Assembly: GCA_018238155.1 (NCBI GenBank)
Contig: JABCTZ010000017.1
Location: 1 to 64,000, forward strand
From: Candidatus Heimdallarchaeota archaeon
GTDB taxonomy: Archaea > Asgardarchaeota > Heimdallarchaeia > JABLTI01
DNA: 64,000 bases
Reading direction: 5' to 3'
The notes beneath the pieces are model-generated. The model saw nothing but the letters and a program-made list of their open reading frames with translations. It searched no databases and was not told the origin of the DNA. The first letter of the stretch is position 1. Every line of letters begins with the position of its first letter. Both the position numbers and the translations under genes were made by a program. Positions 20,551-56,392 of this stretch are shown in pieces.

Positions 20551-20590
20551 CTAATGAAAAGACATCTTCATTAGGAGTATAGCTCCTAAT
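20551..20590 (+). promoter_or_regulatory. Two overlapping, mutually exclusive hairpins upstream of the SMC operon
   Basis: Repeat 1 is CTAATGAA (20551-20558) with TTCATTAG (20567-20574). Repeat 2 is ATTAGGAG (20570-20577) with CTCCTAAT (20583-20590). Both are perfect 8-bp stems and they share ATTAG at 20570-20574, so only one can form at a time in RNA. The element lies 38-77 nt before the SMC start codon. It may be an RNA switch or a compound operator. Confidence 0.5.
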
Positions 20591-20627
20591 AATTCAATTG
20601 ATGTCTGTTCGTTATGGGGTATAAATT

Positions 20628-23615
20628 ATGGAAAACAAAGTAACGCTATTCCAAAAGATAACGCTCGATAATCTAATGCTACATGAATTCACTGAAGTTG
20701 ACTTAGCAAAAGAGTCAATTACATTGATTACTGGAGCAAACGGTTCTGGAAAAACGCAAATACTTGATGGAATTATTATTTGTATCGGACATATACCTAC
20801 TCGAGCAAAGGCTAAAGGGATTGGGAGTTTGGTTGGGAAAAATGGTAAAAATGCGAAAGTAACCCTTGAATTAGCAAATCCAATAGTAAACTCTCGTAGA
20901 GCAATTACTACCATGGATAAAGACCTTAATGCAGTAATTAATTCTGATCGTTTTAAAATAAATGCTAAAATATCTAGAAATGATAGTTCGATTATCTATT
21001 CAATAAATAATTCTCGGACAATTATTAGAGGACGGTTAGTCTCTAGGAGAGATATTAGACGAATTTTCGAATCAATTGGTGTTCGAGGTGACAATCGATT
21101 GGCATTTACAGGAGAAGGTACTGTAGATGAATTTGCTTCAAAGAGTGCAAAACGAAAATTGGATGTTCTATTAGATGTTACTGGTCTTAAACAATACAGA
21201 GAAGAAGTAATCGCTTCTCAAGATACACTCAGAGCAAGCATTCAAGAAATTGAACCATTAAAGAGAAAATTAGAGACAGAAGGAAAGCTCCTCAACCTAT
21301 GGAATGATGCATTGAATATTCTAAAACAAAAAAAGAAATTAATGATAATGAAAACCAATTTGCAAAACGAAATGGCTTGGTCTTATGTTATACGATTAGA
21401 AAAAAGAGTAGAGGGTCTGAATAAAGAGCGATTAAAAATTCTAAAACAAAGAAGCGACAATGAATCCGCAATTCAAAAGAAGGATGAAGAGATAATCATT
21501 CTTAGACGAAAACTAAATTCGTTAGATGACGAATTGGATTCTTTTGAGGAACAGCAAAGAGTAAAAAATAGACGAGTAATAACTCTCGAGACTCAATTAG
21601 AAAATGATGAAGATAACATTGCTAGTTTCCAAAAGGAAATTGTAAGATATTCTGAGCAAAAACAACAAATGGAGTCTCTATTAGCAAATAAGGATTTGAG
21701 TGCCAAGGATCTAAAAATTCAAGATAAACAAGAAGCTCTTGCAGTAAAATTAAAGAAACTTTCAATCCTTCAAGAAAAATGTTCTAGAGCCGAAAATGAA
21801 TTAAGACTTTTACGAAAACAAATTATCAATGAACCGGATTTTGATTCATTCACTTCTAATGAGGAAGTATTCGCGGGGAAAAGATTAACCAAATATGAAA
21901 ACGAAATGGTTCACGCTTCACAAATCTTCCTGCAAAAAGTGAAGCAAATTTCAAAATCTGACGAAATTGCAGGACCAATAATTTCTCTAATTAAGATAAA
22001 AGATGGGCATAAATCTTGGGAAAAAGCAGTAAAAACTATCATCGGTCGAAATCTCTATGCATTTATTGCTAAATCAGATGATGCTTACAGGTTGGCAAAA
22101 CGGATTTATGACGAAACATGGCCTAGATGGAAACCCCCATTATCAGTATACAAAGTTTCAGCAGAAGATGCCCAAAGAGCAACTATCACTACAAAAAAAC
22201 CTTCGTTTAAGGAAATTTATAACATAGCTGCTAATCTAATAGAGGGAGACCCTTTTGCAGTTGGATTCTTGAAAAGAACAACAAGAAATGCATTAGCAGA
22301 AGATAAATACGATCCAAATAGCTTAACCGGTATTGCTAAGCTAATTAAAACTAATATTTTAACAAAATCAGGTAAAAGTTATTACCTTTATCATGGCGGT
22401 TTCGGAAGACCGCCCGTACCGATTAATAATCCATTAGGATATCAATTAAAACCACAAACCGGTAAAACTAGAATTTCTTTTTCAAATGAACGAAAAATAA
22501 GAGTAGAAATTGCTAAATTAGAAAAAGAAAGGAGAGATCTAAAATTCGATGAAATTCAAACAATGGGTGCGATTTCAAAATTACATCAAGAAGTTCAAGC
22601 ATTAGGATTGCCTGATGAAAAAATAATCGGTAAAATTGAAACAATAAACGAACTGATTGCTAATATTGAAGCAAAAGCTGCAGAAATCAAATCACATTAT
22701 AATCAACTAGATTCTGATCTGAATATTGCTACAACTGCTTTTACTTCTTTCAAAAACTCTAAAGGAGAAATTACTCTAAGAATTGACGAAATTGCGGAAA
22801 CAATGGATTTACTAAGAATCGAACAACATAGCTTAAAAGAAAAAGGATCGAGATTATTAACTCTCGAACTAAATTATGATGCTGAATATGAGGAATTTAT
22901 TGAAGATAAAAAAGAACGAGAAGAAACCGCAAAGCGAAAAGGAGAACGACCCGAAGAAATTAGAAATTACTCTGACATTAGAGATGAGCTTAATAGAATA
23001 GAAGGACATCTCGAGTCAATTGGTATAAGCAATGTTGATGAAGACAAAATCGAAGATCAAAAAACAAAGGTCGAATCTCTTAAGAAATATATGACTGAAA
23101 GAGAGGAGCATATTACTCGATTACGTGCTGATTTAGAAGCAAGATTAGCCTTTTGGAATGGTGAATTGCAAGAAATAATAACTAACATCTCAAGAGCGAT
23201 GAAACTACTTCTAGGAGGGATTTTTGATAAGATTCGTTTGAAAGTAACAAATATCAACAAACCTGATGAGGCTGGCTTATTCATTGAAGCCATTACTAAA
23301 GGAGATGACTTTAGGGATTTCCGTGAATTAAGCGGAGGAGAAAAAGTACTTGCCATTGAAGGTCTAATTCTTGCTATGCATACTCTCACAGATTCTCCAA
23401 TTCATGCTATTGATGAATTTACTCAAAGATTAGATGAAAAAAATAAAGCACTAGCCTTTAGTATTGCAATTAGGACACAGAAATTAGCTAATGAAAATTC
23501 TCGTTTTATACCTCAATTTATTCTTTTGTGCCCAGAAGCTCTTGATGTTAAACTCTCAGAAAGCATACATCATGTAGTTGTATCAGAAATGAAGGTGATG
23601 AAAGCTGAACACTGA
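20628..23615 (+). CDS. SMC-family ATPase
   Basis: 995 residues. Walker A is TGANGSGKT at 35-43, followed by a long coiled coil (about 180-430). A globular hinge-like region lies at about 440-620 with no CxxC zinc hook, which argues against Rad50. A second coiled coil follows, then the ABC signature LSGGEK at 901-906 and Walker B with D929-E930 (HAIDEF). It is shorter than bacterial or condensin/cohesin SMCs and nearer to Smc5 in size. The next genes encode kleisin-like and tandem winged-helix proteins, as expected for an SMC complex, then a complete ubiquitin-like set. Only one SMC gene is present, so a homodimer or a distant partner is implied. Confidence 0.92.
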   Translation: MENKVTLFQKITLDNLMLHEFTEVDLAKESITLITGANGSGKTQILDGIIICIGHIPTRAKAKGIGSLVGKNGKNAKVTLELANPIVNSRRAITTMDKDLNAVINSDRFKINAKISRNDSSIIYSINNSRTIIRGRLVSRRDIRRIFESIGVRGDNRLAFTGEGTVDEFASKSAKRKLDVLLDVTGLKQYREEVIASQDTLRASIQEIEPLKRKLETEGKLLNLWNDALNILKQKKKLMIMKTNLQNEMAWSYVIRLEKRVEGLNKERLKILKQRSDNESAIQKKDEEIIILRRKLNSLDDELDSFEEQQRVKNRRVITLETQLENDEDNIASFQKEIVRYSEQKQQMESLLANKDLSAKDLKIQDKQEALAVKLKKLSILQEKCSRAENELRLLRKQIINEPDFDSFTSNEEVFAGKRLTKYENEMVHASQIFLQKVKQISKSDEIAGPIISLIKIKDGHKSWEKAVKTIIGRNLYAFIAKSDDAYRLAKRIYDETWPRWKPPLSVYKVSAEDAQRATITTKKPSFKEIYNIAANLIEGDPFAVGFLKRTTRNALAEDKYDPNSLTGIAKLIKTNILTKSGKSYYLYHGGFGRPPVPINNPLGYQLKPQTGKTRISFSNERKIRVEIAKLEKERRDLKFDEIQTMGAISKLHQEVQALGLPDEKIIGKIETINELIANIEAKAAEIKSHYNQLDSDLNIATTAFTSFKNSKGEITLRIDEIAETMDLLRIEQHSLKEKGSRLLTLELNYDAEYEEFIEDKKEREETAKRKGERPEEIRNYSDIRDELNRIEGHLESIGISNVDEDKIEDQKTKVESLKKYMTEREEHITRLRADLEARLAFWNGELQEIITNISRAMKLLLGGIFDKIRLKVTNINKPDEAGLFIEAITKGDDFRDFRELSGGEKVLAIEGLILAMHTLTDSPIHAIDEFTQRLDEKNKALAFSIAIRTQKLANENSRFIPQFILLCPEALDVKLSESIHHVVVSEMKVMKAEH

Positions 23616-24510
23616 AGATGATACCAACAACATTGAATTTATAATAGAATCTAATTCAGATGAATCTTTAGTAGATGTAATTGAAAACAATGACAATACC
23701 TCCAAACTAAAGAAGGTCAAAGATAAAATTAAATCTCCAAAGAAAAAGACTTCTTCAGTTTCTAGTATAGAGAAGAAATTATGGAATGTCGCTAAAAAAT
23801 ACAAGTCGTTTTTCGATAAAGATGAAGTCCCCCAAATTGCTGAAAGTGAAGAAGATCGCCAAGAAGTATCTGATGCTTATTTGGAAGTTTCAACAAAGCG
23901 CCATAGACAGCTAGATTCACGCGTTTATTACTCTTTGACAAAAATGCAAAGAACACGAGATGCAAAAGTTGCTTTAGAAGGGACGACAGAGAAAGATAGA
24001 TTAAGAATGATTGCTTGGGAAGTAAAAATTCGTCTTCAACCGATTATTTTTGCTGTTGGTGATAGTACAATAGAAATGGACATTTTTAATCTTCATGAGA
24101 CAGGGGCTGATGTTAGAATTATTGAGGGAAATAGTCAAGAATTGCTGATTGAAGATAATGTCCTTGATGAGAACAGCATTGCAATACTTGATGATTTACC
24201 TCTTAGAAAACTAACAAAAGATCAGAAAACAAAATTGAAAAGAGAAATTATCGAGAAATTTGTTGGAAAGGTTTTTTCAAGAGATGATTTTAATAGAAAG
24301 CTCAACAGCCTTTATGCAGATTTGATTTCTTTAATGGTGCGTGAAAAACAAATCATCATTTTAAAACAGCAAGATAATAGATTCAAGCTTATACACGTAG
24401 AACATGAAGAAGCTATTGACTTAGAACATCTAGTTAGTCAATCACTTGTAATTATACCAAAAATGGTTCAACTACAGAATGTAGCTATTAGAAGGAGTAA
24501 GAAGAAATGA
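23605..24510 (+). CDS. Putative kleisin-like SMC subunit
   Basis: The frame opens at 23602 inside the end of the SMC gene. The best start is CTG at 23605, 7 nt after AGGTG, giving about 301 residues; the first ATG in frame is not until 23947, inside the conserved region. The first 90 residues are acidic and lysine-rich and probably disordered. A middle part follows (HRQLDSRVYYSLTKMQRTRD...), and the C-terminal 90 residues have a winged-helix pattern (KREIIEKFVGKVFSRDDFNRKL...REKQIIILKQQDNRFKLI). A C-terminal winged helix is the kleisin mark (ScpA, Nse4). The gene overlaps both neighbours (11 bp with SMC, ATGA with the next). The kleisin call rests on position and fold pattern only. Confidence 0.5.
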   Translation: MNTEDDTNNIEFIIESNSDESLVDVIENNDNTSKLKKVKDKIKSPKKKTSSVSSIEKKLWNVAKKYKSFFDKDEVPQIAESEEDRQEVSDAYLEVSTKRHRQLDSRVYYSLTKMQRTRDAKVALEGTTEKDRLRMIAWEVKIRLQPIIFAVGDSTIEMDIFNLHETGADVRIIEGNSQELLIEDNVLDENSIAILDDLPLRKLTKDQKTKLKREIIEKFVGKVFSRDDFNRKLNSLYADLISLMVREKQIIILKQQDNRFKLIHVEHEEAIDLEHLVSQSLVIIPKMVQLQNVAIRRSKKK

Positions 24511-25136
24511 TTGATAATAGATTAGAAGATTACGAAGAAGTGACAGAAAATACTCGAGATTCATCTGAAGTAGAAGAAAAATTAACAGAAGATTTTGGAG
24601 AAATGGACCCCCAGTTATTTGTTGCATTATCTTCGCGTTGGAGAAAAGAAAATGGCTCACTTGCTTTTGGTATAGAAAAACGACAACTACGTAATAAGAC
24701 AGGCTTAACGTTGATGGAACTTGAAACGCTGCTTGAAGATTTTGGCAAAAAAGTAAAAAGAATAGGATTGGAACTAATTTCATATGTTGAGAATAATCAA
24801 GAATGGTATTGTTTACGCTCGATATTTGTTGTTCCAAATGAATTGTCATTGGATGAACAAGCAGTACTAGGTACAATTATTTTCTTAATAGAGAAAAAAA
24901 CTGATCATCGAAGAAGGGAAGAAACACCAATTACTTCAACTGAATTAATTGCAAGATTGGTAAAAAGGGGCTACTACTCTGAATATACATTAACGAAAAT
25001 TCTACGTAGATTAGATAATTCTGGGTATGTTAGGCGAGGGGGAAATAAAATACGCTATGGAGCAAGAACAAAAATTGAGATTTCTTCTGATAGACGAAAA
25101 GAAATTGCTGATAGAACTGAGGGAATGCTACTTTAA
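24507..25136 (+). CDS. Tandem winged-helix (KITE-like) SMC subunit
   Basis: 209 residues. An acidic N-terminal tail precedes two predicted winged helices, at about 32-110 and 118-200 (LDEQAVLGTIIFLIEKK...TSTELIARLVKRGYYSEYTLTKILRRLDNSGYVRRGG). Tandem winged helices next to SMC and kleisin genes define KITE proteins, such as ScpB, MukE and the MAGE-type Nse1/Nse3 of Smc5/6. Its ATG overlaps the stop of the kleisin-like gene (ATGA), so the two are coupled. Whether it is closer to ScpB or to Nse1/Nse3 cannot be decided by eye. Confidence 0.6.
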   Translation: MIDNRLEDYEEVTENTRDSSEVEEKLTEDFGEMDPQLFVALSSRWRKENGSLAFGIEKRQLRNKTGLTLMELETLLEDFGKKVKRIGLELISYVENNQEWYCLRSIFVVPNELSLDEQAVLGTIIFLIEKKTDHRRREETPITSTELIARLVKRGYYSEYTLTKILRRLDNSGYVRRGGNKIRYGARTKIEISSDRRKEIADRTEGMLL

Positions 25137-25156
25137 TTCAATGAGGTGAAGATGAA

Positions 25157-25648
25157 ATGGCCGTTGTAACAACTACTACTGTTTCGGTGAGGTGTGCGGG
25201 GCACAATGGTAGAGCTACGCTAAAAGAAGCGGTAGAAGCAGGTTGGCGTATGTGTAGAATTTGTAGGTCATTTATCTGTCCAAAATGCATCGAAGAATTT
25301 GATTTGAAAATGAATGGAACTTGCCCATCGTTTATTTTTGGAATGGACCAACACCAGCTTAGTCCAGGGCCTATTCCCGTTGAAGAAGTAATTCTATTTG
25401 CAGAATCAAACAAACAAGAAGGAATTACCGGTGGGTTGTTAGAAGCACTCTTCTTTGAGGATGAGCAAATGGGTTTTATGCCTTTTTATGCTGCTATTGA
25501 AAAGAAAAAGAAAGAAGAAGAAGAGACGGATGAAGATGAATTGAGTTTAGAACCTCCAAAAATACAAGAAGAAATGTGGTCGTCTTTTGGATTTGTAATG
25601 ACTAAAAGAAGACGAGGAAAATTCATTACTTGGGAGAAAATCGGTTAA
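25157..25648 (+). CDS. Small RING-like zinc protein
   Basis: 163 residues. Likely zinc ligands are C13-x2-H16, C33-x2-C36, C41-x2-C44 and C56-P, a RING/treble-clef-like pattern. The rest is acidic, with a KKKKEEEETDEDE linker and a basic aromatic C-terminus. In Caldiarchaeum-type archaeal ubiquitin operons a small RING finger protein acts with E1, E2, ubiquitin and Rpn11-like genes. Here it lies 20 bp after the KITE-like gene and 33 bp before the JAMM gene. It could be the E3-like subunit that links conjugation to the SMC complex, analogous to the Nse1 RING. The same cysteine spacing recurs in the protein at 35113. Confidence 0.6.
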   Translation: MAVVTTTTVSVRCAGHNGRATLKEAVEAGWRMCRICRSFICPKCIEEFDLKMNGTCPSFIFGMDQHQLSPGPIPVEEVILFAESNKQEGITGGLLEALFFEDEQMGFMPFYAAIEKKKKEEEETDEDELSLEPPKIQEEMWSSFGFVMTKRRRGKFITWEKIG

Positions 25649-25681
25649 GGTTTTTAGAGACTAACAATAGGTGTAATACAG

Positions 25682-26317
25682 GTGACAAAAAAACAACAAA
25701 AACAAAAAAAATTACTTTCCGAATTACTTGGTGAAGTCGCACCTGAAGAAACCCCTTCAGAACAAATTGAAGAGGAATCTCAAACTGTTGATAATGAAGA
25801 GCTTACTGAGGAAATTTTAGAAGAATATCCATTAAATGAAATATATTCGGTATACATTCTACATAGAGTCGTTTATGAAACAATAGTTATGTGTAAGAAA
25901 GCTATTCCAAATGAAGCAATTGGTATTCTCTTAGGATATAAAATGCGATACAAGGGGAAAAATTATGTCAAGGTAGTTGATTGGGTCACAGGTAAAGCAA
26001 ACCAAAGTCAAGCTTTTGCAGAATTTACTCCTGAGGGTGTAAGACAATACACTACACTAATTGATGAAAGATATGGAGAAAGTGAAAACCGACCAAGAAT
26101 AGTGGGTATAATTCATTCACATCCATTTGGGTCTAATCCACATTTCTCCAGAACGGATTATAATACCTTTCTGAATTTTCCCTATGATGCAGAGCACAAT
26201 GTATTCGTTTTAGTAGATCCGAAATCTGGTTACTACAAAACATACATGGTTCTTACAAATGAGGAAAAACAAAAGGATTTGATCGAAGTAAACTGGATTG
26301 AATATACAGCACGATAA
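25682..26317 (+). CDS. JAMM/MPN+ metalloprotease (Rpn11-like)
   Basis: 211 residues with a GTG start preceded by AGGTGT. An acidic N-terminal tail (1-50) is followed by an MPN domain with E78 (NEAIGILLG), H145 and H147 (HSHP) and D159 (FSRTD). The HSHP-to-SxxD spacing is 7 residues, one more than in Rpn11 or CSN5, but all zinc ligands and the catalytic glutamate are present. It should remove or mature ubiquitin-like tags. The ubiquitin-like protein here already ends at its terminal glycine, so isopeptidase action is the likelier role. Confidence 0.9.
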   Translation: MTKKQQKQKKLLSELLGEVAPEETPSEQIEEESQTVDNEELTEEILEEYPLNEIYSVYILHRVVYETIVMCKKAIPNEAIGILLGYKMRYKGKNYVKVVDWVTGKANQSQAFAEFTPEGVRQYTTLIDERYGESENRPRIVGIIHSHPFGSNPHFSRTDYNTFLNFPYDAEHNVFVLVDPKSGYYKTYMVLTNEEKQKDLIEVNWIEYTAR

Positions 26318-26329
26318 AGAGGTGAAAAA

Positions 26330-27184
26330 ATGACTGAAAAACCACTACATGTAGGATTTTACGAGGATGACCTTGAAGATCGTACTCGAAGATATTATGG
26401 AATAGATAACCTCAAACGAATTAAAGATAGCACAATTTTGTGTGTCGGTGCCGGAGCTGTTGGAAATGAGGTTTGTAAAAATCTTGGTATGTTGGGTGTA
26501 GGTCATATTCGTTTAGTTGATTTTGATATAGTAAGTAAATCAAACATAAATCGTTGTATATTTTTCAGACCTGAGGATCACAAAGAAATTTCAAAAGTTG
26601 AAGCTGTAACAAAACGATTGCCGGAAATTGTCCCAAATACAAAGATTACTCCCTATAATGTGAGAATAGAAGAAGCACCCCTAGAAGTTTATGATGCTGA
26701 TTTAATTATTATGGCATTGGATAATGACTATGCAAGGTATATGTTAAATTTCGCTGATTTAATGTTAGAAGTACCCATTCCAATTGTTAATGGTGCTATG
26801 GGAAGATCATTTTTAGAAGCGGAAATATATCTCCCAGGTGATACTGCTTGTGCAGTTTGCTTATGGAGTGAGGATTATTATCGTTCAATAATGACTCATC
26901 AAGTAACGCTAAAATGTGATGAATTTTTTATTGACACATTACCTAAATTTCCAATGATCAGTACATTGACTTCAATTGTTGGTGGGATTATGTCTGTTGA
27001 AGCAACTAAAATTCTCATTAGTAGCGATGGAACTGGTAAATACCCGAATATTACAAAAGGGCAAGAACCAAACTTCGGTAAAATGATTAGATATGATCTT
27101 AGAAATCATGAATTAACTATTGGGAATATTATGCCAAATCCAAAATGTGTAGATGTAACATGCAGAGCAAGGCGAAAAAATTGA
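26330..27184 (+). CDS. E1-like ubiquitin-like-protein activating enzyme
   Basis: 284 residues, one adenylation domain of the ThiF/MoeB/Uba class. The nucleotide loop is VGAGAVGNEVCKNL (39-52), followed by VDFDIVSKSNINR (63-75) and ALDNDYAR (129-136). Structural zinc ligands are C174/C177 (CAVC) and C273/C278. The likely catalytic cysteine is C196 in LKCDEFFIDTLPKFP, in the position and context of the UBA2/UBA3 active cysteine (CT...TP). No C-terminal ubiquitin-fold domain is present. It lies 12 bp after the JAMM gene and activates the ubiquitin-like protein encoded next. Confidence 0.92.
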   Translation: MTEKPLHVGFYEDDLEDRTRRYYGIDNLKRIKDSTILCVGAGAVGNEVCKNLGMLGVGHIRLVDFDIVSKSNINRCIFFRPEDHKEISKVEAVTKRLPEIVPNTKITPYNVRIEEAPLEVYDADLIIMALDNDYARYMLNFADLMLEVPIPIVNGAMGRSFLEAEIYLPGDTACAVCLWSEDYYRSIMTHQVTLKCDEFFIDTLPKFPMISTLTSIVGGIMSVEATKILISSDGTGKYPNITKGQEPNFGKMIRYDLRNHELTIGNIMPNPKCVDVTCRARRKN

Positions 27185-27208
27185 CGCTCACATCGGTAAT
27201 TTCCATCA

Positions 27209-27271
27209 ATCAAATATTTGATGGAATATCAAAGATGCAGAGCAGCATCCATACAGTTGTAATAATAAATT
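27209..27271 (+). promoter_or_regulatory. Cluster of hairpins between E1 and the ubiquitin-like gene
   Basis: Within the 128-bp gap are a perfect 14-bp palindrome ATCAAATATTTGAT (27209-27222), a 5-bp stem GATGC/GCATC (27234-27249) and a third small stem GTAAT/ATTAC near 27257-27271, followed by A-rich sequence. It may be a processing site or a second promoter that lets the ubiquitin-like protein and E2 be expressed at a different level from the SMC genes. Confidence 0.35.
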
Positions 27272-27312
27272 ACTCTGTAAAAATAAAAAAAATCAACTAA
27301 AGGTGTTAATAA

Positions 27313-27624
27313 ATGAGCGAAGAAATATGGCGTGAAATAATCGTTGACGTAGAGCCTAGACAAAAAGAGTTTAGGGTAGCAGTTGAAGAAGAATCTACTA
27401 TAGATGAAGTTGTCAAAACATTAGTACAACGATGTGTAGATGAAGGTGTAGACATTTCCAAATGGGCTAAAGAAAAGGTAGGACAACCAAATGTTAGTTT
27501 CGTGTTAATGCGAAAATCAACAGGTAATACTGCCTTACCTCCTGCAGTAACTTTTGGTTCATTAGAACCAATACTCGAGACAAATGAACGCTTTAAACTT
27601 GATGCATGTGCTCAAGTTGGATAA
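27313..27624 (+). CDS. Ubiquitin-like modifier protein
   Basis: 103 residues with a beta-grasp pattern: two N-terminal strands (REIIVDVEPRQKEFRVAVEE), the main helix (TIDEVVKTLVQRCVDEG), then FVLMRKSTGN, a turn and FKLDACAQVG. It is preceded by AAGGTG. The C-terminus is a single glycine after valine rather than Gly-Gly, with no extra tail. Position between E1 and E2 genes makes it the probable substrate of this conjugation set. A YukD/EsaB-like non-conjugated beta-grasp protein is the alternative. Confidence 0.72.
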   Translation: MSEEIWREIIVDVEPRQKEFRVAVEEESTIDEVVKTLVQRCVDEGVDISKWAKEKVGQPNVSFVLMRKSTGNTALPPAVTFGSLEPILETNERFKLDACAQVG

Positions 27625-27722
27625 AGTTTCGAAACGAACATTCAACAGTAATTATAGTTAGGTATTGATCTTTGGGGATTACAAATTAATTCCCAATTTA
27701 TCTTAATGAAATAAAACGAAAG

Positions 27723-28502
27723 GTGAAAAAAATTTCAAGAGCAAATTTCCCGGCGACTGTAGTAAACGCAAGAATAGCCGAATCGATAAATGTCTTTTAT
27801 GATTCGATGGAAGATTTCTTCAAAAAAGAAGGATGGAAATGGCAACCATTCGCACGAAAAGGTGACAAATGGGTACAAGAAGATTATACAGTAGAAATAA
27901 CTGGGAAATATCAAGATGGCGCATTTAGAGAGATACTCTTTACTGCTAGAAGAACTCCGGGTTTAATTGGACAATCAACTAAAAAGGATAAAATGAATAT
28001 CGGTTACATTCACAAGTTCTCGATATATCTACCCAGGGTGTATCCTGCAAACTTGTCCCACATAAAAATGAAAGTTATATCACGACTTTGGCATCCAAGA
28101 ATATCCATGTCTGGTAGAGGAGATGCTTGTATAACCGTAAATGGTGAAGTGGATAGAATTTTGATTGATTTGATTTACCATCTATTAATGGACCCAAAGA
28201 GAATACGTCCACCAAAACTATATCCAAAAGAGGATTCGGGTATGAATACAGTAGCTATGCGTTGGTTTGAAAAAGATGCAGAAGATATACATAAAGCAAT
28301 GCTAGTAAATTGGGATACAAAACACGAAAAAACTTCTTTGAAAGATGGTGGTGGTGGAATAAAGATAATCGGTGGAGATAACAAAAAGCAGGAAAGCAAA
28401 GGAAAGAGTGCAATCAGAATCATTCCAAAAAAGATTGAGGAAACAAAAGAATCCTCACAAAAGAAAGAGAAAAAGAAGAAGGGTGGCATGCGTATAATTT
28501 GA
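27723..28502 (+). CDS. E2-like (UBC-fold) conjugating enzyme with motif-bearing tail
   Basis: 259 residues. The UBC fold is shown by IYLPRVYPANLSHIKMKVIS, then HP at 124-125, then GRGDACITVNGEVDRILIDLIYHLL, where C136 is the expected catalytic cysteine, and a following RPP segment. The family's HPNI...GxICL pattern is well kept. Residues 215-259 are a charged tail with three IKII/IRII/MRII-type motifs. The annotated GTG lies inside the AAAGGTGA box; spacing suggests initiation at ATT 27732 instead. Its stop overlaps the TTG of the next gene. Confidence 0.85.
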   Translation: MKKISRANFPATVVNARIAESINVFYDSMEDFFKKEGWKWQPFARKGDKWVQEDYTVEITGKYQDGAFREILFTARRTPGLIGQSTKKDKMNIGYIHKFSIYLPRVYPANLSHIKMKVISRLWHPRISMSGRGDACITVNGEVDRILIDLIYHLLMDPKRIRPPKLYPKEDSGMNTVAMRWFEKDAEDIHKAMLVNWDTKHEKTSLKDGGGGIKIIGGDNKKQESKGKSAIRIIPKKIEETKESSQKKEKKKKGGMRII

Positions 28503-28795
28503 AAAAAAGGACGAATGTGCAAGCAAACGATGAATTCGATGAGTTTACCTTCGAAATTAGCTCATCAAATGCAAATGATGAGATAATTGAAGAAATTGAA
28601 AGCCTAGATCTGATAGATGAAAACATTGAAGATAAACCCAAACAAAAAACGATTAAAATTCTATCTGAAAGGGATATTCAATACAGAGAATCACCACCTC
28701 CAAATTATTATCCAAAATTCAAATGTATTTTACATTATAAAGGTGGGAACTATCGGAAAAGGAAAATACTCAAGGTAGCACATCAGGAAGACTAG
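28499..28795 (+). CDS. Small acidic operon protein, unknown
   Basis: 98 residues from a TTG that overlaps the E2 stop (TTGA), with GGTGGC upstream. The first half is acidic (NDEFDEFTFEISSSNANDEI...ESLDLIDENIED), then PKQKTIKILSERDIQYRE, then a basic aromatic end (NYYPKFKCILHYKGGNYRKRK). TIKIL resembles the repeated motif in the E2 tail. No family is recognised. Coupling to E2 suggests an adaptor or inhibitor of the conjugation set. Confidence 0.6.
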   Translation: MKKRTNVQANDEFDEFTFEISSSNANDEIIEEIESLDLIDENIEDKPKQKTIKILSERDIQYRESPPPNYYPKFKCILHYKGGNYRKRKILKVAHQED

Positions 28796-28917
28796 TGAAA
28801 CGCAATTCATATTCTTTTTTTATCAACTCTATTTTGGATTTAATAGATGATTTAAAAACACATCAGTTATTTAGCTTGCTAAGCAAATACTATCATTATC
28901 AAAGTAGTTCTAGTTAA
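28795..28917 (+). CDS. Possible 40-residue operon-end micro-protein
   Basis: A GTG overlaps the preceding stop (TAGTG), with AGGAAG about 5 nt before it. It encodes 40 residues, mostly one amphipathic helix (SFFINSILDLIDDLKTHQLF) ending SSSS and TAA. The coupling and ribosome-binding site are suggestive, but the size makes chance possible. Confidence 0.35.
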   Translation: MKRNSYSFFINSILDLIDDLKTHQLFSLLSKYYHYQSSSS

Positions 28918-28940: not shown

Positions 28941-30659
28941 TTGACAAAAACTATTGTTCTAAAAGTAAAAGGTTTGTCACATGAAGATGTATGTAATATT
29001 GTGAGGAATAATTATCAATTAACCCTCTCTGAACCTGTTAAGAAAAAAATACGATTAGCTAGAAAAGCAATTGAGATATCTGTGGAATCAGGACAGAAAG
29101 TCTATGGAATTACTACCGGTTTTGGCTCTCTAAGGGATATCGTTATCCGAGAGAAAGATGCTGAACAATTACAGATAAATTTAATCAGAAGCCACTCTGT
29201 TGCTGTGGGTGAACCCGCAAAAGATGAACAAGTAAAAGCAATGATGGTTCTACGCGTTACTGCTTTGGCTAGAGGGAACTCTGGTTGTCAGCTCTCTACA
29301 GTAGAGAATCTAATTGCTATGATAAATGACAATGTATTACCTATCATTCCAAGTAAGGGATCTGTTGGCGCAAGTGGTGATTTAGCTCAACTTTCACATA
29401 TGGCATTAACAATGATTGGGGATGGTCATAATAACCTAAAATATAAAGGTAAAATATATGATGCTAAAGATGGTTTGAAAAAAGCAGGCATCCCTATAAC
29501 AAAATTATCATACAAAGAAGGCTTGGCTTTAAATAATGGTGTACAATATTCTGCTGGAATAGCATGTATGGCTATAAAGGATTCATATAATCTATTAGAG
29601 AATTCGCTAATAGCGCTTGCATTAACAATGGAAGCTCTAAAAGCTGCAAAACAACAGTTTGATGAGAGAATACATTTAGCAAGAAATCATCCTGGACAAA
29701 TAGCAATTGCTCGAAAAATAAGAGCATTCTATAAAGGGAGCAAATTAGTAAAAATCTATGGGGATGTCTATACTTGTCCCGAAGAATTTTGTGGATACTA
29801 TTACGATTCTGAAATGGGCGATTCAAATCGTGGAATTAAAGAATGGACTCTTTTTGAAGATTTGCCTGAAGATTGGACTTGTCCAAAATGCGGTTTAGTA
29901 AAGAACACTTTCATAAAAACACTGCCAAAGTTGCAAGATGATTATTCAATCCGATGTTCACCACAAGTACTTGGACCAATAAGTGATGTGATGGATAATA
30001 CTAGAACAATATTATCTCGAGAGATAAATGCTGCAACAGATAATCCTTTGATTTTCATTAAGAGGGAAGATCCACTAGAATTTGATATTTTTTCCGGTGG
30101 CAATTTTCATGGGGAACCGATAGCAATTGCTATGGATCATCTAGCTATAGCAATGGCAGAATTAGGAAACATTGCAGAAAGACGATGTGCAAAATTAGTT
30201 GACGGTTCTAGGAATGAGGGCTTGGGTGCATTTCTAATCCATAGAGAAGCTTTAGGATTAAATAGTGGTTTTATGATGCCTCAGTATGTCACCGCCGCAC
30301 TTGCTTCTGAAAACAAAGTATTAGCTTCTCCTGCTTCAATAGATTCAATACCAACTTCTGCAAATGCTGAAGATCATGTAAGTATGAGTCCAATTGCTGC
30401 AAGAAAAGTTGTTGCAATAAATGAAAATTTAGTCTATATTATTGCTATAGAAATGATGCTAGCTGCACAAGGTGTAGATTTAAGATGCCAAATACAAAGC
30501 TTGACTCCAAAAGATGCTCTAGGTGATAAGACTTTCAAAGCTTATCAATTTATAAGAAGTATAATTCCAGTATTAACTCATGATAGAATAATTTATACCG
30601 ATATAGAAAAACTAGCTAAAAAAATAATTGATGGAAGTATTGTAAAATCAATTTCATGA
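28941..30659 (+). CDS. MIO ammonia-lyase (HAL-like) with inserted rubredoxin domain
   Basis: 572 residues from TTG with AGGAGA upstream. GSVGASGDLAQLSH holds the MIO triad A144-S145-G146. The selectivity loop LIRSHSVAVG has the Ser-His of histidine ammonia-lyases. QDDYSIRCSPQVLG and ATDNPLIF are also intact, so the lyase looks active. A complete rubredoxin (about 277-322) is inserted directly before QDDYSIRC: C279-x4-C284-GYYYD, GIKEWTLFEDLPEDW and C314-x2-C317-G. Removing it restores the normal length of about 515-525. Iron binding beside the active-site segment suggests redox or oxygen sensing. Histidine to urocanate is the likeliest reaction, not proven. Confidence 0.9.
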   Translation: MTKTIVLKVKGLSHEDVCNIVRNNYQLTLSEPVKKKIRLARKAIEISVESGQKVYGITTGFGSLRDIVIREKDAEQLQINLIRSHSVAVGEPAKDEQVKAMMVLRVTALARGNSGCQLSTVENLIAMINDNVLPIIPSKGSVGASGDLAQLSHMALTMIGDGHNNLKYKGKIYDAKDGLKKAGIPITKLSYKEGLALNNGVQYSAGIACMAIKDSYNLLENSLIALALTMEALKAAKQQFDERIHLARNHPGQIAIARKIRAFYKGSKLVKIYGDVYTCPEEFCGYYYDSEMGDSNRGIKEWTLFEDLPEDWTCPKCGLVKNTFIKTLPKLQDDYSIRCSPQVLGPISDVMDNTRTILSREINAATDNPLIFIKREDPLEFDIFSGGNFHGEPIAIAMDHLAIAMAELGNIAERRCAKLVDGSRNEGLGAFLIHREALGLNSGFMMPQYVTAALASENKVLASPASIDSIPTSANAEDHVSMSPIAARKVVAINENLVYIIAIEMMLAAQGVDLRCQIQSLTPKDALGDKTFKAYQFIRSIIPVLTHDRIIYTDIEKLAKKIIDGSIVKSIS

Positions 30660-30902: not shown

Positions 30903-31115
30903 TGTATTTTATCCAATAATACCGTGACCATAGCCTTTGAATACGTCCAAATGTAAATACCTTTTTTGTACAAAAGAATCTTCAAGTTAATAGTAAAAAC
31001 TGCTTTTTGTGGGTAGAATGTGGGGTAACGAACCAATCCTATCCCATGCTTTCTAGATAAAGATTTTAAACTTAGCTCAAATACTTTGACAATCATTCAC
31101 TTTAGGTGGAAAAAC

Positions 31116-32639
31116 ATGACCTATACAATCAAAGGTGCTGGACTAACAATTGAAGATGTTGTAAAAGTCGCACGACATAATGAAAAAGTAAAGTTGCATC
31201 CTGACGCAATAAAACGCATGCAAACATGTAGAGATATGGTCGAAGAAAAAATCGAAGCAAACGAAGTTATGTACGGAATAACAACAGGAATTGGTGAATT
31301 CTCAGAGACATTTCTTAAAGGTGAGGAAGTCAAGTTATTCCAGAAATATTTGATATATAATCACGCTGCAGGTATTGGTAAAGCAGCTCCTATTGAGCAT
31401 GTTCGTGCTGCTATGCTAGGTAGACTCAATGTTCTCGCACATGGAAATTCTGGTAACAGAGTAGTAATTGCTGAAACATATGTTGAAATGTTGAATAAAG
31501 GAGTCACTCCAGAAGTTTGTGAAAAGGGTTCTGTTGGTGCTTCTGGTGACTTATGTTCCATGTCACAAATAGCTTTACTTCTTATGGATGAAGGAAGAGC
31601 TTTCTATAAAGGTAAATTATTGCCTGGAAAAGAAGCCTTGGCTAAAGCAGGAATCAAAGCTCCAGGATTAGAACCTAGAGATGGTTTAGCAGCAATTAAT
31701 GGCTCTAATTTTCTTACTGCAATGAGTGCTCTTTGGCTTTATGACGCATTAAGATTCATGAAGCAAGCAGAGATTGCTTGTGCAATGACAATTGAAGCAT
31801 TAATGGGTAATATGAAACCTTACACTCCAAAGCTGCACGAAATTCGCGGCTTCCCTGGCGCAATTAGATCTGCAAAGTCACTTTCAAAACTTTTCAAAGG
31901 AGGGGACTTGTTTGAAGCAAAACTAAAAGTAAAAGTTCAAGATGCTTATTCAATGCGCTCTGCTCCCCAAGTATTAGGTGCTGCTCATGATGCATTAGCT
32001 TGGGCTCGTTCACAAGTGGAAATTGAATTAAATGGCGTTGGAGATAATCCTATCTTCTTCCCCGAAGAAAAATTAACACTCACTGGAGCAAACTTCCAAG
32101 GAACTCCTGTTAGTTTACCATTTGATATGGCTGGTGCAGCAATTACTATGGTCTGTGTTATGTCTGAAAGACGTATGAATAGATTAAATCATCCAGCACT
32201 TAGTGTAGGTTTACCACCATTCCTAACAAAAGGAGCAGGATTAATGTCTGGTTTGATGTTAAGTCAATATACTGCAGGTATGCAAATCGTTGAAATGCGA
32301 ATCTTATCCGCTCCTGCAAGCATCCAATCTATTCCAGCAGCTGCAGATCAAGAGGACTTCGTTTCAATGGGAATGAATACTGCTCTCAAAAACAATCAAA
32401 TTTTGGATAATGCTTATGGTGTTCTTGGTATAGAGCTTATGGCAGCTGCACAAGCTTTGGATTTCAGAGAATTCAAATTTGGTGATGGTGTAATAAAAGC
32501 CAAAGAAGTAATTCGAAAACATGTTGATTTCCTTGACGAAGATAGACCATTGTTTGACGATCACAATGCTATGAAAGCATTGGTCAAATCATGTGAAATT
32601 CTCGAAGAAGTTGAAAAAGAAATTGGCAGTTTAGATTAA
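31116..32639 (+). CDS. Second MIO-type aromatic amino-acid lyase family protein
   Basis: 507 residues from the ATG 31116, preceded by AGGTGG (a TTG at 31086 is out of range of this box). GSVGASGDLCSMSQ gives the MIO triad A142-S143-G144, and VQDAYSMRSAPQVLG, GVGDNPIFF and the N-terminal YGITTGIG tyrosine loop are present. The selectivity loop reads LIYNHAAGIG, with Asn-His instead of the Ser-His of the lyase upstream, and LAQLSH is replaced by LCSMSQ. It may therefore use another amino acid or act as an aminomutase. No hutU, hutI or formiminotransferase genes are in the window. Confidence 0.88.
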   Translation: MTYTIKGAGLTIEDVVKVARHNEKVKLHPDAIKRMQTCRDMVEEKIEANEVMYGITTGIGEFSETFLKGEEVKLFQKYLIYNHAAGIGKAAPIEHVRAAMLGRLNVLAHGNSGNRVVIAETYVEMLNKGVTPEVCEKGSVGASGDLCSMSQIALLLMDEGRAFYKGKLLPGKEALAKAGIKAPGLEPRDGLAAINGSNFLTAMSALWLYDALRFMKQAEIACAMTIEALMGNMKPYTPKLHEIRGFPGAIRSAKSLSKLFKGGDLFEAKLKVKVQDAYSMRSAPQVLGAAHDALAWARSQVEIELNGVGDNPIFFPEEKLTLTGANFQGTPVSLPFDMAGAAITMVCVMSERRMNRLNHPALSVGLPPFLTKGAGLMSGLMLSQYTAGMQIVEMRILSAPASIQSIPAAADQEDFVSMGMNTALKNNQILDNAYGVLGIELMAAAQALDFREFKFGDGVIKAKEVIRKHVDFLDEDRPLFDDHNAMKALVKSCEILEEVEKEIGSLD

Positions 32640-35074: not shown

Positions 35075-35112
35075 TTGATTAACATGGGAATTTAAAGTCT
35101 GGTGTGATTTTA

Positions 35113-35481
35113 TTGGTAGAGACTAGAACAGAACAAATTCGTTGTATTTTGTGTAATAAGCACCTAGACCTTACAATGAGCGATGGAAAAGAATTGTTCA
35201 TTTGCTCGGAATGCCAAGCCTATTTTTGCCCTGACTGTTTACAAGCAATAGAAAATTATTCAGCATGCCCTGCAGCAAGATTGCTAGGAGCTAAAGAGCA
35301 TGAGTTGAAATTTCTAAAAATCCTTCCACCAAAACTAATCTTTTCAAGTGGTAATTTATCACAAATTGAAAAAAATAAACCATCTACAGTAAAAATTTTG
35401 CCCAAAAAAAGTATCAAGGTAATTGAATCAAAATCCGAAAGGAATAAAGCAGTGAAAAAAAAAAATAACTTCAAGAAATAA
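35113..35481 (+). CDS. Second small RING-like zinc protein
   Basis: About 122 residues from TTG 35113, with GGTGTGAT 5 nt upstream (GTG 35104 would add three residues). Ligands C11-x2-C14-x16-C31-x2-C34-x4-C39-x2-C42-x9-C52-P follow the spacing of the protein at 25157, where H16 replaces C14 and the last interval is x11. The tail carries VKILPKKSIKVIES, similar to the motif in the E2 tail, and ends in a lysine-rich stretch. The next gene, 27 bp on, encodes a transglutaminase-fold protein. It is probably a paralogue of the operon RING-like protein and a candidate for ubiquitin-like signalling. Confidence 0.6.
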   Translation: MVETRTEQIRCILCNKHLDLTMSDGKELFICSECQAYFCPDCLQAIENYSACPAARLLGAKEHELKFLKILPPKLIFSSGNLSQIEKNKPSTVKILPKKSIKVIESKSERNKAVKKKNNFKK

Positions 35482-35508
35482 ATAGCATTCATAAAAGGGG
35501 TGTATTAT

Positions 35509-37212
35509 TTGCAAATTAAAGCGTTCAAATTAACTATGACCGGTGAAATAGCAATAACTAAAACTACTCCAATAAGTAGTGGAGAACTGCTCAGGTTAAT
35601 GGTCATCCCAGTAATGAACGATTCAGAAATTGTAAATGCTTCCAAAGTTGAAGTTCTAAATCCGTATGAAATTAGAGTTGTTGATTCTAGATTACCTGTA
35701 TTTGATCAAACAAAAGTTGTTTATTTTGATATCACAATTCCAAAAAATTGGTCTAGTGGACGCTATTTAACTAGTGTACTGTGTACTAATGGAAAAATAA
35801 TAACCAGTTGCTATTTTTATTTTCAAGCGGGGAAAAATGCTCATGTAATAAATCGAATACAAAACCCAAAATGGATTCTTAATTATTCGTTAAATGTGAA
35901 AAATGTCAGTGAAAAACCAGTGGGTAATTTTTCAGCATTTATTGCGTTACCATTAACTATTTCTCCACAGCAAATAGTAAGCAATTTACAAATTCATCCC
36001 AGTAACCTAACTATATCAACCGATGTAGAAGGAAACCATTGGACACATTTCTCAGTAAAAAGAATGGAAGCAAAAGAATCGCGTTTATTGAGCTATAGTG
36101 CTGAAGTTGAAATGAAACCTTTGATTATCCCTCAAAGGATTTCTAAAATTACGAAAACAAATCCCTACGAAAGAAAATTCTTGCAAAATTATCTGCAACC
36201 TGAACCACATATTGAAAGTGATCATCTTAAAATAGTGAAGATGGCTGCAAATATTCCAAATAATGATCCGCTCACCTTTGCTAAACGTGCTGCAAAACAA
36301 GTGCAAAAAACAGTTAAATATGAAATACAACCAGGAGAATTCGGAGCAGCTTTTGCTATTGAAAAAAGAAAAGGGGATTGTACTGAATTTGCTGCATTAT
36401 TTGTTGCTCTTTGTCGAGCTGCTGGCATTCCAGCAAGAACAAATGCCGGTTTTGCTTTAGCCCAAAGATGGGAGAGGCACGCAACTGCAGAATTCTTAGT
36501 TCAAGGAAGGTGGATTCCTATAGATCTCACTATGCAGAGAAGCAGTGAAATTATTCTCGGATCTTTACCACTAAATATTATCGTTACTCGAGGTAACTGG
36601 ATGGGTGGAACTTTAGCTAAAGAAGTAGCTTACAAATATCAAGTTATAGAACCTAAACAGAAAGTAGATATTGATATTCTCTGGAATATTGTTCTTAGCA
36701 ATGGGAATAATCACTCAACAACTAATCATTCTGCAATAAATAAAACAGTTAAAATTATTGATCCACAAATTTTTAACTCATCAAAAATTAAACCAAAAGT
36801 AATTGAGCAAAGCAAAATAAAAATTTTAGTCGAAAATGAAGGACAAGAAGTTGATTTTATAAAAGTAACTAAAAATAAACCAATTGTTCTTTCGAAAAAG
36901 AAGCATAAAATGTTCGAGTTAAAAGTAGAAATGCCTGATGCTATTAAACAAGGTGCCTCTTTTAAACCAAAAATAACTCTTATTAACCATTCAGAAAACA
37001 ATCTCACTGGCTGCTGCGAAATAAGAGAATTTGTGGATGGAATAATCAAAATACGATCAATTGTAGGGAAGAAAATACCGCCGAATTCCCAAAGGACGAT
37101 TAAACCAATAATTAGTTTGGATTCCATTGGAATGAGTGAACTAGAAATTATTTACAGCAATCGTATTGGAAGAGTGCTATCCAGAATATCTGATTTGATA
37201 AGTCTTTATTAG
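35509..37212 (+). CDS. Transglutaminase/papain-fold protein, cytosolic
   Basis: About 567 residues from TTG 35509, with AGGGG 8 nt upstream. The core (about 235-350) holds the triad C291 (KGDCTEFAALFVALCRAAGIPAR), H324 (RHATAEF) and D339 (PIDLT), all intact. N- and C-terminal parts are beta-rich, possibly immunoglobulin-like. No signal peptide or membrane helix is seen, unlike many archaeal transglutaminase-like proteins, so it should act in the cytosol as a protease, deamidase or cross-linker. Its position beside a RING-like protein raises a link to ubiquitin-like tags, as inference. Confidence 0.8.
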   Translation: MQIKAFKLTMTGEIAITKTTPISSGELLRLMVIPVMNDSEIVNASKVEVLNPYEIRVVDSRLPVFDQTKVVYFDITIPKNWSSGRYLTSVLCTNGKIITSCYFYFQAGKNAHVINRIQNPKWILNYSLNVKNVSEKPVGNFSAFIALPLTISPQQIVSNLQIHPSNLTISTDVEGNHWTHFSVKRMEAKESRLLSYSAEVEMKPLIIPQRISKITKTNPYERKFLQNYLQPEPHIESDHLKIVKMAANIPNNDPLTFAKRAAKQVQKTVKYEIQPGEFGAAFAIEKRKGDCTEFAALFVALCRAAGIPARTNAGFALAQRWERHATAEFLVQGRWIPIDLTMQRSSEIILGSLPLNIIVTRGNWMGGTLAKEVAYKYQVIEPKQKVDIDILWNIVLSNGNNHSTTNHSAINKTVKIIDPQIFNSSKIKPKVIEQSKIKILVENEGQEVDFIKVTKNKPIVLSKKKHKMFELKVEMPDAIKQGASFKPKITLINHSENNLTGCCEIREFVDGIIKIRSIVGKKIPPNSQRTIKPIISLDSIGMSELEIIYSNRIGRVLSRISDLISLY

Positions 37213-55390: not shown

Positions 55391-56392
55391 CTATCCTTTC
55401 TGCTTCCGAATAAGCAATTTTAATGGTTTTGCAAGGCGCTCATCCATAACGAATATTTTTATTCCAGATTTGAGATTCTTTTTATTTACGACCATTTTTC
55501 CGTCAAGAATAATTCCTTTAAGCATAAGCTTTGGATCTGCAAGACCAAAAGCATAAGCAATGCGAGTTGCGAGTTCTTCTATTGTTTCTCCATTTTCAAC
55601 TATGAATTTCGCTTCTTCAAGCTCATATTGTTCTCCACAAACAGGACACTTCTTATTTCGTGCTAACCTAATGGTTGTTGATGTACCTGAAAGACCATCA
55701 TAAAAGAAATAATTATCAAGGGGAGTTCCAATTTTCATTATTGTTTTTAATGCTTCTTGACTGAGAATGCCGCCGATAATCATAGATAGAGTTGCGACAG
55801 CAGGCATTGGAGCTTCTTTTTTCTTAGGTAAATGCTTTCGTTTTTTACCTACAGGAGAACAAGCTTGACTTAGCTTTTCTTGCGGAATTAGAGGTTGGCA
55901 TTCAAAACATGGAGTTTCATATGGAACGATTCTCTGTACATGCCCTAGAAAACCAAACATACCACCAGAGATGAGTGGTTTTTTCACATCTACTACCAAT
56001 GAGTTTAACCATCGACGAGCATCGAAGGAATCCAAACCAGCGATAATAACATCACATTCCTTGTAATATTTTCGCTTTACTTCTTCCAATCTCATAGGTA
56101 AGGAAATAACTTCGATTTCAGGATTTATTTCTCGTAACCGCTTAGCGGCAATTTCTGATTTGTATTTTCGAACATCTCGTTTTCGAAATAGAAATTGACG
56201 GTTCAAATTACTGTATTCAATAGTATCCATATCACAGAGGTATATATGACCAACACCACTTAAAGCTAAATTTGCGGCAACGAAAGAGCCAAGAGCACCA
56301 ACACCAGCTACTAGAGCAGTAGCTTTAGTAATACTATCTTGATTCCAATTTTTAATTCTCATTTGTCGGTCGTATCTTGACATACCTCTCAC
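55391..56392 (-). CDS. Second E1-like enzyme with C-terminal ubiquitin-fold-like domain
   Basis: 333 residues. RYDRQMRIKNW, VAGVGALGSFVAANLALSGVGHIYLCD and SNLNRQFLFR are classic ThiF/Uba motifs; zinc cysteines are C162/C165 and C249/C252. The likely catalytic cysteine is C178 (SQACSPVG). A lysine-rich insertion follows (KKRKHLPKKKEAP). Residues 260-320 (IVENGETIEELATRIAYAFG...KGIILDGKMVVNKKNLKSGIKIFVM) look like a beta-grasp domain equivalent to the E2-binding ubiquitin-fold domain of UBA2/UBA3. It stands alone, away from the operon at 26330. It may serve the ubiquitin-like protein there, or a Urm1/SAMP-type modifier. Confidence 0.85.
   Translation of the reverse strand: MRGMSRYDRQMRIKNWNQDSITKATALVAGVGALGSFVAANLALSGVGHIYLCDMDTIEYSNLNRQFLFRKRDVRKYKSEIAAKRLREINPEIEVISLPMRLEEVKRKYYKECDVIIAGLDSFDARRWLNSLVVDVKKPLISGGMFGFLGHVQRIVPYETPCFECQPLIPQEKLSQACSPVGKKRKHLPKKKEAPMPAVATLSMIIGGILSQEALKTIMKIGTPLDNYFFYDGLSGTSTTIRLARNKKCPVCGEQYELEEAKFIVENGETIEELATRIAYAFGLADPKLMLKGIILDGKMVVNKKNLKSGIKIFVMDERLAKPLKLLIRKQKG

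Follow-up and report, generated by a model that had tools for sequence, protein, structure and literature searches.

The gene cluster

The window analysed here is a stretch of 64,000 nucleotides from a Candidatus Heimdallarchaeota archaeon (contig JABCTZ010000017.1, positions 1–64,000, forward strand; assembly GCA_018238155.1, 4.08 Mb, 91% complete). It contains nine genes on the plus strand, between positions 20628 and 28795, which encode an SMC ATPase with its probable partners (KLE, WH and RING1), a ubiquitin-like modifier (UBL) with putative enzymes for its attachment and removal (E1, E2 and JAMM), and a small protein, SM9 (Table 1). In our reading, the cluster probably specifies a chromosome complex of the SMC5/6 type that has its own cycle of ubiquitin-like conjugation and deconjugation.

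An earlier note on this DNA, made from its letters alone, had named the nine genes and described their overlaps, and all of these are present. SMC and KLE overlap by 11 bp, which requires KLE to start with the CTG codon at 23605; close relatives have TTG (L010) or CTG (L009) at this position. KLE and WH overlap by ATGA, and E2 and SM9 by TTGA. A tenth small gene (28795–28917, TAGTG overlap) had been listed as well; we reject it, since stops interrupt the reading frame in the two closest relatives, G001 and G008, and it is not conserved. It is thus probably not a gene. KLE, WH, RING1, UBL and SM9 match no Pfam family significantly.

Two further components, RING2 and TGL, lie 6.3 kb past the end of the nine-gene run and outside the span of the earlier note. 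In what follows, f1 denotes the genus of the window, f4–f7 other families of the same class, and f11 a family of the same phylum and a different class. Because the RING2 and TGL proteins of f11 have homologues at 35104–37212, the predicted system in the window comprises eleven components, the nine-gene run plus these two.

Table 1. Components of the predicted system and their positions in the window
Component	Description	Position	Strand	Evidence
SMC	ATPase, SMC5/6 clade (moderate support), 995 aa; head, coiled coil and hinge	20628..23615	+	Pfam SMC_N 6e-20, hinge 0.004; PDB profile; head tree
KLE	Kleisin-like, 301 aa; predicted helical N-terminal part, putative winged helix at the C-terminus, conserved tail of hydrophobic and basic residues	23605..24510	+	Position; low-confidence secondary structure
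WH	Tandem winged-helix, KITE-like, 209 aa	24507..25136	+	Alignment, Foldseek, hhalign
RING1	RING-like zinc protein, 163 aa	25157..25648	+	Ligands C-x2-[CH] / C-x2-C / [CD]-x2-C / C-x9-H
JAMM	JAMM/Rpn11-type isopeptidase; E-HxHP-x7-S-x2-D intact	25682..26317	+	Pfam Prok-JAB 5e-9
E1	E1-like, ThiF/UbaA type, 284 aa	26330..27184	+	Pfam ThiF 1e-38; orthologues in f1, f7, f11
UBL	Putative modifier, 103 aa, C-terminus ..AQVG	27313..27624	+	Alignment; in 19/228 genomes
E2	E2-like, 259 aa, predicted catalytic C136	27723..28502	+	Pfam UQ_con 0.004 (below cut-off); weak PDB profile matches
SM9	Small acidic protein, one conserved IKIL/IVIL motif; putative adaptor of unknown fold	28499..28795	+	Homologues beside E2 in f11, f7
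RING2	RING-like zinc protein, putative E3	35104..35481	+	BLASTP 1e-9 to f11 RING2
TGL	Transglutaminase-fold (papain-like), putative UBL protease	35500..37212	+	Pfam Transglut_core 2e-20; BLASTP 3e-46 to f11 TGL

The SMC subunit

A profile of 18 Asgard SMCs finds Smc6 as its best match in the PDB (4e-49, almost full length), followed by Smc4 (4e-33), Smc5 (3e-27) and prokaryotic SMC (5e-24). In a tree of SMC head domains (367 columns), the window SMC falls together with Smc5 and Smc6 and is separated from canonical archaeal and bacterial SMCs and from Smc1–4, with support values of 92.6/98 (SH-like approximate likelihood ratio test/ultrafast bootstrap). The heads of human SMC2, 4, 5 and 6 were checked against PDB alignments, and those of yeast Smc5 and Smc6 and of a second Smc2 and Smc4 (ct, 6qj1, 6qj2) were taken from such alignments. 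The human SMC1A and SMC3 heads, like the SMC heads of B. subtilis and P. furiosus, entered the first tree only; when these and the long branches are dropped, support for the grouping is 97.3/98.

With moderate support, the SMC thus appears to belong to the Smc5/Smc6 clade, in line with the relation to Smc5/6 proposed in the earlier note. Profile ranking and head tree lead us to reject Rad50, ClsN/ASRP and canonical SMC as its identity. A larger published analysis gives 100% bootstrap for Smc5/6 together with "SMC5/6-related" archaeal SMCs (PMC9389158), which likewise group with Smc5 and Smc6 and are very probably the same family as the window SMC.

The window genome and most of its relatives have one SMC of this clade, and additional paralogue fragments occur only in f7, where divergent SMC5/6-like proteins are found besides the operonic SMC (L135, L136 and L137); these possibly reflect an independent duplication. 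More distant SMC5/6-like SMCs of ∼1060–1080 residues, with other neighbours, occur in f26 (L130) and f18/f23 (L131–L134), and a WH-like gene lies near the f26 SMC.

Elsewhere, the window genome also encodes a canonical SMC, next to a ScpA-like gene, and a ScpB (L139 and L195); it therefore has two SMC complexes. No ScpB match was obtained in the f3, f4, f5 and f6 genomes tested, and the canonical SMC as query gave no strong match in those of f3, f4 and f5. The SMC5/6-like complex might therefore be the only SMC complex in f4.

Kleisin-like, winged-helix and RING partners

To model the three proteins encoded after SMC, KLE, WH and RING1 of L011 were run through AlphaFold2 (AF2) as one fused chain, with the intervening stops read as glycine. 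The AF2 alignments were shallow, with sequences from one genus. WH contains two winged helices by predicted secondary structure, and the predicted local distance difference test score (pLDDT) is mostly 52–77 there. A Foldseek search of the model against the PDB returned Nse1 twice (1.6e-5 and 2.8e-5, probability 1.00), then ScpB, SelB (a factor with tandem winged helices), MukE and JetB. Since the Nse1 alignments extend over 246–253 columns for targets of 231–236 residues, they suggest that WH and RING1 are colinear with the WHA–WHB–RING order of Nse1, with poorly predicted domain packing (template modelling score 0.27). Sequence profiles do not confirm Nse1: a fused WH and RING1 profile matches only RING E3s and generic winged helices. 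When WH is compared directly with ScpB by hhalign, the tandem winged helices give a weak alignment (E 0.0017, probability 15%).

On these predictions, WH would be a protein of two tandem winged helices encoded beside an SMC, as are the KITE subunits, and the alignment of RING1 together with the Foldseek matches bears out the proposed pairing of a KITE-type protein with a RING-like one. No second KITE was seen in the cluster. RING1 is a separate gene directly after WH, also in lineages without UBL and E2, and its RING part has weak PDB matches to RNF4, TRIM21 and other RING E3s. An Nse2-type SP-RING was not detected, as none of the cluster proteins scanned matches Pfam zf-Nse.

KLE follows SMC directly, a position kept in five Heimdallarchaeia families and in f11. 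Its N-terminal part is predicted to be helical, and in the low-confidence model its C-terminus has the element order helix-strand-helix-helix-strand-strand of a putative winged helix. We call KLE a candidate kleisin on gene position and predicted secondary structure. The tail after the predicted winged helix (24420–24480 in the window) reads SLVIIPK in f1 and SSSVLLSPKK in f4, a pattern that resembles the short motifs of E2, SM9 and RING2 described below.

The putative modifier and its enzymes

No other protein of the set is as conserved as UBL (91% to G006, versus 60% for SMC and 48% for KLE), which would be expected of a modifier that has many partners. The UBL sequence ends in ..VG in f1 and in one of the f7 genomes; in the second f7 genome and in f11, the ends are ..VGF, ..VGD or ..VGFSS. 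Since zero to three residues follow VG, the alignment implies a modifier that would be processed to a single-glycine end. As to the beta-grasp fold of a ubiquitin-type modifier, a homologue from f11 matches Pfam YukD weakly (0.05).

The E1 alignment retains the nucleotide-binding loop, Asp64 and Asp66, Arg75, the zinc cysteines Cys174, Cys177, Cys273 and Cys278, and an invariant Cys196. The latter presumably sits at the place of the catalytic cysteine of UbaA/Uba4 enzymes and is a candidate catalytic residue. E2 retains LPR-x-YP-x-N, HPR, Gly133 and, after these, Cys136; its PDB profile matches are weak and are mostly to E2s, across the active-site segment. In JAMM, Glu78, His145, His147, Ser156 and Asp159 are invariant across the two classes, and all eight aligned TGL sequences carry the Cys-His-Asp triad (Cys294, His327 and Asp342). 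The predicted catalytic residues of E1, E2, JAMM and TGL are thus intact. With linked E1, E2, UBL, RING and JAMM genes and intact active sites, the cluster shares what characterizes ubiquitin operons of the Caldiarchaeum type.

Most E2 tails contain two or three repeats of the motif [KR][VI]x[IL][IL], which is also present in the tails of SM9 and RING2; one TGL from f7 ends with such a motif as well. The motifs resemble SUMO-interaction motifs, a resemblance only, and their enrichment over shuffled sequences in single proteins is modest.

Distribution across Asgard genomes

The order SMC-KLE-WH-RING-JAMM-E1-UBL-E2-SM9 is unbroken in all relatives of the genus with a long enough contig (L011/L041, L012/L040, L015/L039 and L043). 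In f11, all eleven genes lie in one block of 9.9 kb (L126, and likewise L127 and L185; inverted in L125 and L138), arranged as JAMM-E1> <TGL-RING2-SM9-E2-UBL SMC-KLE-WH-RING1>. This is the gene set of the window in rearranged order, in which RING2 separates SM9 from TGL. The grouping of these genes is thus more than a chance arrangement, with a constant order in the genus and complete clustering in f11. In f7, JAMM follows SMC-KLE-WH-RING on one contig (L090), and a UBL-E2-SM9-TGL operon is found on a separate one (L184).

The order SMC-KLE-WH is also kept in f4, f5, f6 and f7, where the SMC has 26–32% identity to that of the window. RING1 follows in these families, except in L093 (f7), where the contig ends before it, and in L092 (f6), where it was undetected. 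An SMC of this type is present in 9/9 genomes of f1, 21/23 of f4, 1/1 of f5, 3/3 of f6, 2/2 of f7 and 8/8 of f11, and in none of the 12 genomes of f2 and the nine of f3. The distribution looks like vertical inheritance with loss; the SMC core and RING1 appear to be vertically inherited.

Profiles of UBL and E2 match an identical set of 19 of the 228 Asgard genomes (nine f1, two f7 and eight f11). All 19 are among the 50 genomes with the SMC, for which a naive hypergeometric P is 1e-14; the genomes are not independent, and the real content of this figure is three families. None of the 228 genomes has the UBL/E2 module without the SMC core.

Orthologues of TGL (E ≤ 1e-98) occur in f1, f4, f7, f11 and f27. 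Those of f7 and f11 are linked to UBL-E2, and those of f4 and f27 to the SMC core. The transglutaminase fold is widespread in Asgards, and linkage to the SMC core is restricted to the group defined by this threshold. In the f4 genomes represented by L078, L083 and L085, in which UBL and E2 were not found, the TGL gene lies ∼5–6.5 kb past SMC-KLE-WH-RING1, with mostly transporters between. Since UBL and E2 occur only with the SMC, and TGL stays near the core in f4 where both are missing, dependence runs from the modifier module to the core and not from the core to the module.

Interpretation of the cluster

We consider it likely, with a probability of about 0.7, that the cluster encodes a chromosome complex of the SMC5/6 type together with a dedicated cycle for attaching and removing a ubiquitin-like modifier. 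The tie between the SMC and a dedicated E1-E2-UBL-JAMM set, proposed in the earlier note, is found both physically (in the window and f11) and phyletically (in the 19 genomes). From this linkage and co-occurrence we infer that the complex may be regulated by its own modifier.

Several observations weigh against this interpretation. The AF2 model of KLE-WH-RING1 has low confidence, with a mean pLDDT of 42 and values of up to 77 in the winged helices, where it is best. KLE matches no kleisin in Pfam, the PDB or the ScpA profile, and the kleisin of the earlier note is a candidate from gene position and predicted secondary structure. For the SMC, the approximately unbiased (AU) test disfavours two alternative placements and leaves them unrejected at the 5% level (p 0.079 and 0.061). 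UBL ends in a single glycine and not in the two of the Caldiarchaeum type, and it gave no significant match in the PDB profile search or, modelled as a fused UBL-E2 chain (mean pLDDT 35), in Foldseek. The latter result shows that a poor model does not of itself produce convincing matches. Finally, profile searches of f4, f5 and f6 find the SMC core and RING1 but no UBL and no E2; the modifier is therefore not essential to the core.

This last point, and the separate contigs that carry UBL-E2-TGL and the SMC core in f7, would be expected if two independent modules, an SMC5/6-like complex and a general archaeal ubiquitin-like system with unrelated substrates, were neighbours by chance or for co-expression. 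We regard this explanation as unlikely, because the UBL module never occurs without the core in the 228 genomes, the linkage is held across two classes although the gene order is rearranged, and RING1 (f4–f6) and TGL (f4) remain with the core where UBL is missing.

Slightly less probable still is a role in defence against viruses or plasmids, in which a Wadjet-like SMC sensor would be coupled to ubiquitin-like tagging, as in the bacterial Bil and CBASS systems. Eukaryotic Smc5/6 also restricts viral episomes, and PADLOC gives weak matches of E1 to CBASS E1-E2 (6e-18), JAMM to JAB (6e-8) and SMC to LmuB (2e-16) and JetC (0.003). However, the presence of the SMC in nearly every genome of f1, f4 and f11, with neighbours constant within each family, is a vertical pattern and not the patchy distribution of a defence island. 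The cluster contains no nuclease or toxin, and for its SMC the PDB profile search ranks Smc6 above the prokaryotic SMCs. A sulfur-transfer or cofactor pathway of the ThiS/MoaD/Urm1/SAMP kind, with E1, UBL and JAMM not serving protein conjugation, would suit the ThiF/MoeB/UbaA-like sequence of E1 and a single-glycine end that is less typical of ubiquitin, but we reject it as very improbable, since the set also comprises a dedicated E2 with an invariant catalytic cysteine, a pair of RING-like proteins and proteases of two kinds, and no cofactor genes are among the neighbours scanned.

The interpretation as an SMC5/6-type complex with its own modifier is built on computed gene content, order, conservation and co-occurrence, on intact catalytic residues and on the moderately supported SMC placement. 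Subunit contacts, direction of transfer, substrate and a role in replication or repair, all beyond the E1-E2-UBL conjugation chain, are parts of the following proposal. Two copies of the single SMC would form a V-shaped ATPase with KLE bridging the heads, and WH, as a KITE, would sit on KLE and hold RING1 near the heads, as fused Nse1 does in eukaryotes. The complex would be loaded onto DNA as an SMC5/6-type motor. Where a tail is present, JAMM or TGL might cut the UBL precursor to ..VG; E1 would then adenylate the C-terminal glycine and hand it to Cys136 of E2. RING1, RING2 or both may recruit the charged E2 to the DNA-bound complex, so that UBL would be joined to one of its subunits or to a neighbouring chromosomal protein, and JAMM or TGL would remove the tag. 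The short hydrophobic motifs that recur in the E2, SM9 and RING2 tails could tether the enzymes to one partner, either UBL or the SMC core.

More tentatively, and possible rather than probable in our view, the cluster may derive from the archaeal forerunner of eukaryotic Smc5/6. This forerunner would already have been a chromosome-bound ubiquitin-family ligase, with a homodimeric SMC, a KITE and a RING1 that were still encoded apart and would later be joined in Nse1, and a modifier cycle of its own. If so, the ligase functions of Nse1 and Nse2 would be remnants of an archaeal arrangement and not eukaryotic additions. The earlier note had called the complex a possible ancestor of Smc5/6 or a parallel to it. 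A tree in which one archaeal SMC lineage adjoins the Smc5 and Smc6 pair of eukaryotes agrees with this, whereas the unrejected AU alternatives and the lack of an Nse2 SP-RING or a second SMC among the proteins seen do not favour it.

Comparison with known systems

Eukaryotic Smc5/6 consists of Smc5, Smc6, Nse1 (RING-KITE), Nse2 (SUMO ligase), Nse3 (KITE) and Nse4 (kleisin). The predicted complex resembles it in SMC clade, in having a KITE-like and not a HAWK partner, in a RING-like protein next to it and in its coupling to ubiquitin-family modification. It differs in having one SMC gene instead of Smc5 and Smc6, in encoding RING1 separately, in lacking an SP-RING detectable with Pfam and in bringing its own modifier, E1, E2 and proteases. 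The plan of SMC, candidate kleisin and tandem winged-helix (KITE-like) protein is shared with ScpA-ScpB-SMC, MukFEB and JetABC (Wadjet), whose SMCs are of a different clade; we know of no ubiquitin-like genes in their operons. Unlike Bil and CBASS, the system is vertically distributed and forms no patchy island with an effector.

The compact set of E1, E2, UBL, small RING and JAMM is common to the Caldiarchaeum-type operon (PMC5654768) and the Asgard Ub-ESCRT clusters (PMC9192718), in which some precursors also need C-terminal trimming. In contrast to these systems, the window set has a UBL ending in ..VG and not GG, a short E1, an extra transglutaminase-fold protein and linkage to an SMC complex rather than to ESCRT genes or a stand-alone operon.

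Archaeal SMC5/6-related SMCs and archaeal ubiquitin operons are each already known. The accessible part of the study of the former (PMC9389158) treats SMC proteins only and makes no mention of kleisin or of KITE, RING or ubiquitin-like neighbours. In the literature, van Hooff et al. 2025 not covered, we found no report of a stable coupling of SMC5/6 to ubiquitin with a single-glycine modifier and two protease-type proteins. Because the same gene set is clustered in a second, distant Asgard class, the link between an Smc5/6-type machine and ubiquitin-type control may predate eukaryotes. The coupling points to an archaeal ubiquitin-like system of a new, chromosome-dedicated class, with a complete, small and probably self-contained modifier cycle.

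No eukaryotic SMC complex other than Smc5/6 is known to have built-in ubiquitin-family ligases or to retain KITE subunits. The origin of these ligases and KITEs is a question that an archaeal system of about eleven proteins makes testable: whether the RINGs act with E2, what the modifier targets and whether tagging controls DNA loading or release.

Neighbouring genes

An ammonia-lyase of the histidine/aromatic type is encoded at 28941–30659 (plus strand; Lyase_aromatic 1e-168); its lyase fold is interrupted by an inserted, complete rubredoxin domain (residues 277–324; Pfam Rubredoxin 5e-14). An ordinary paralogue of the lyase follows downstream at 31086–32639. A second E1/ThiF-family protein of 333 residues (55391–56392, minus strand) resembles a class-wide E1-like protein and is probably part of a different pathway, of ubiquitin-like or MoeB type.

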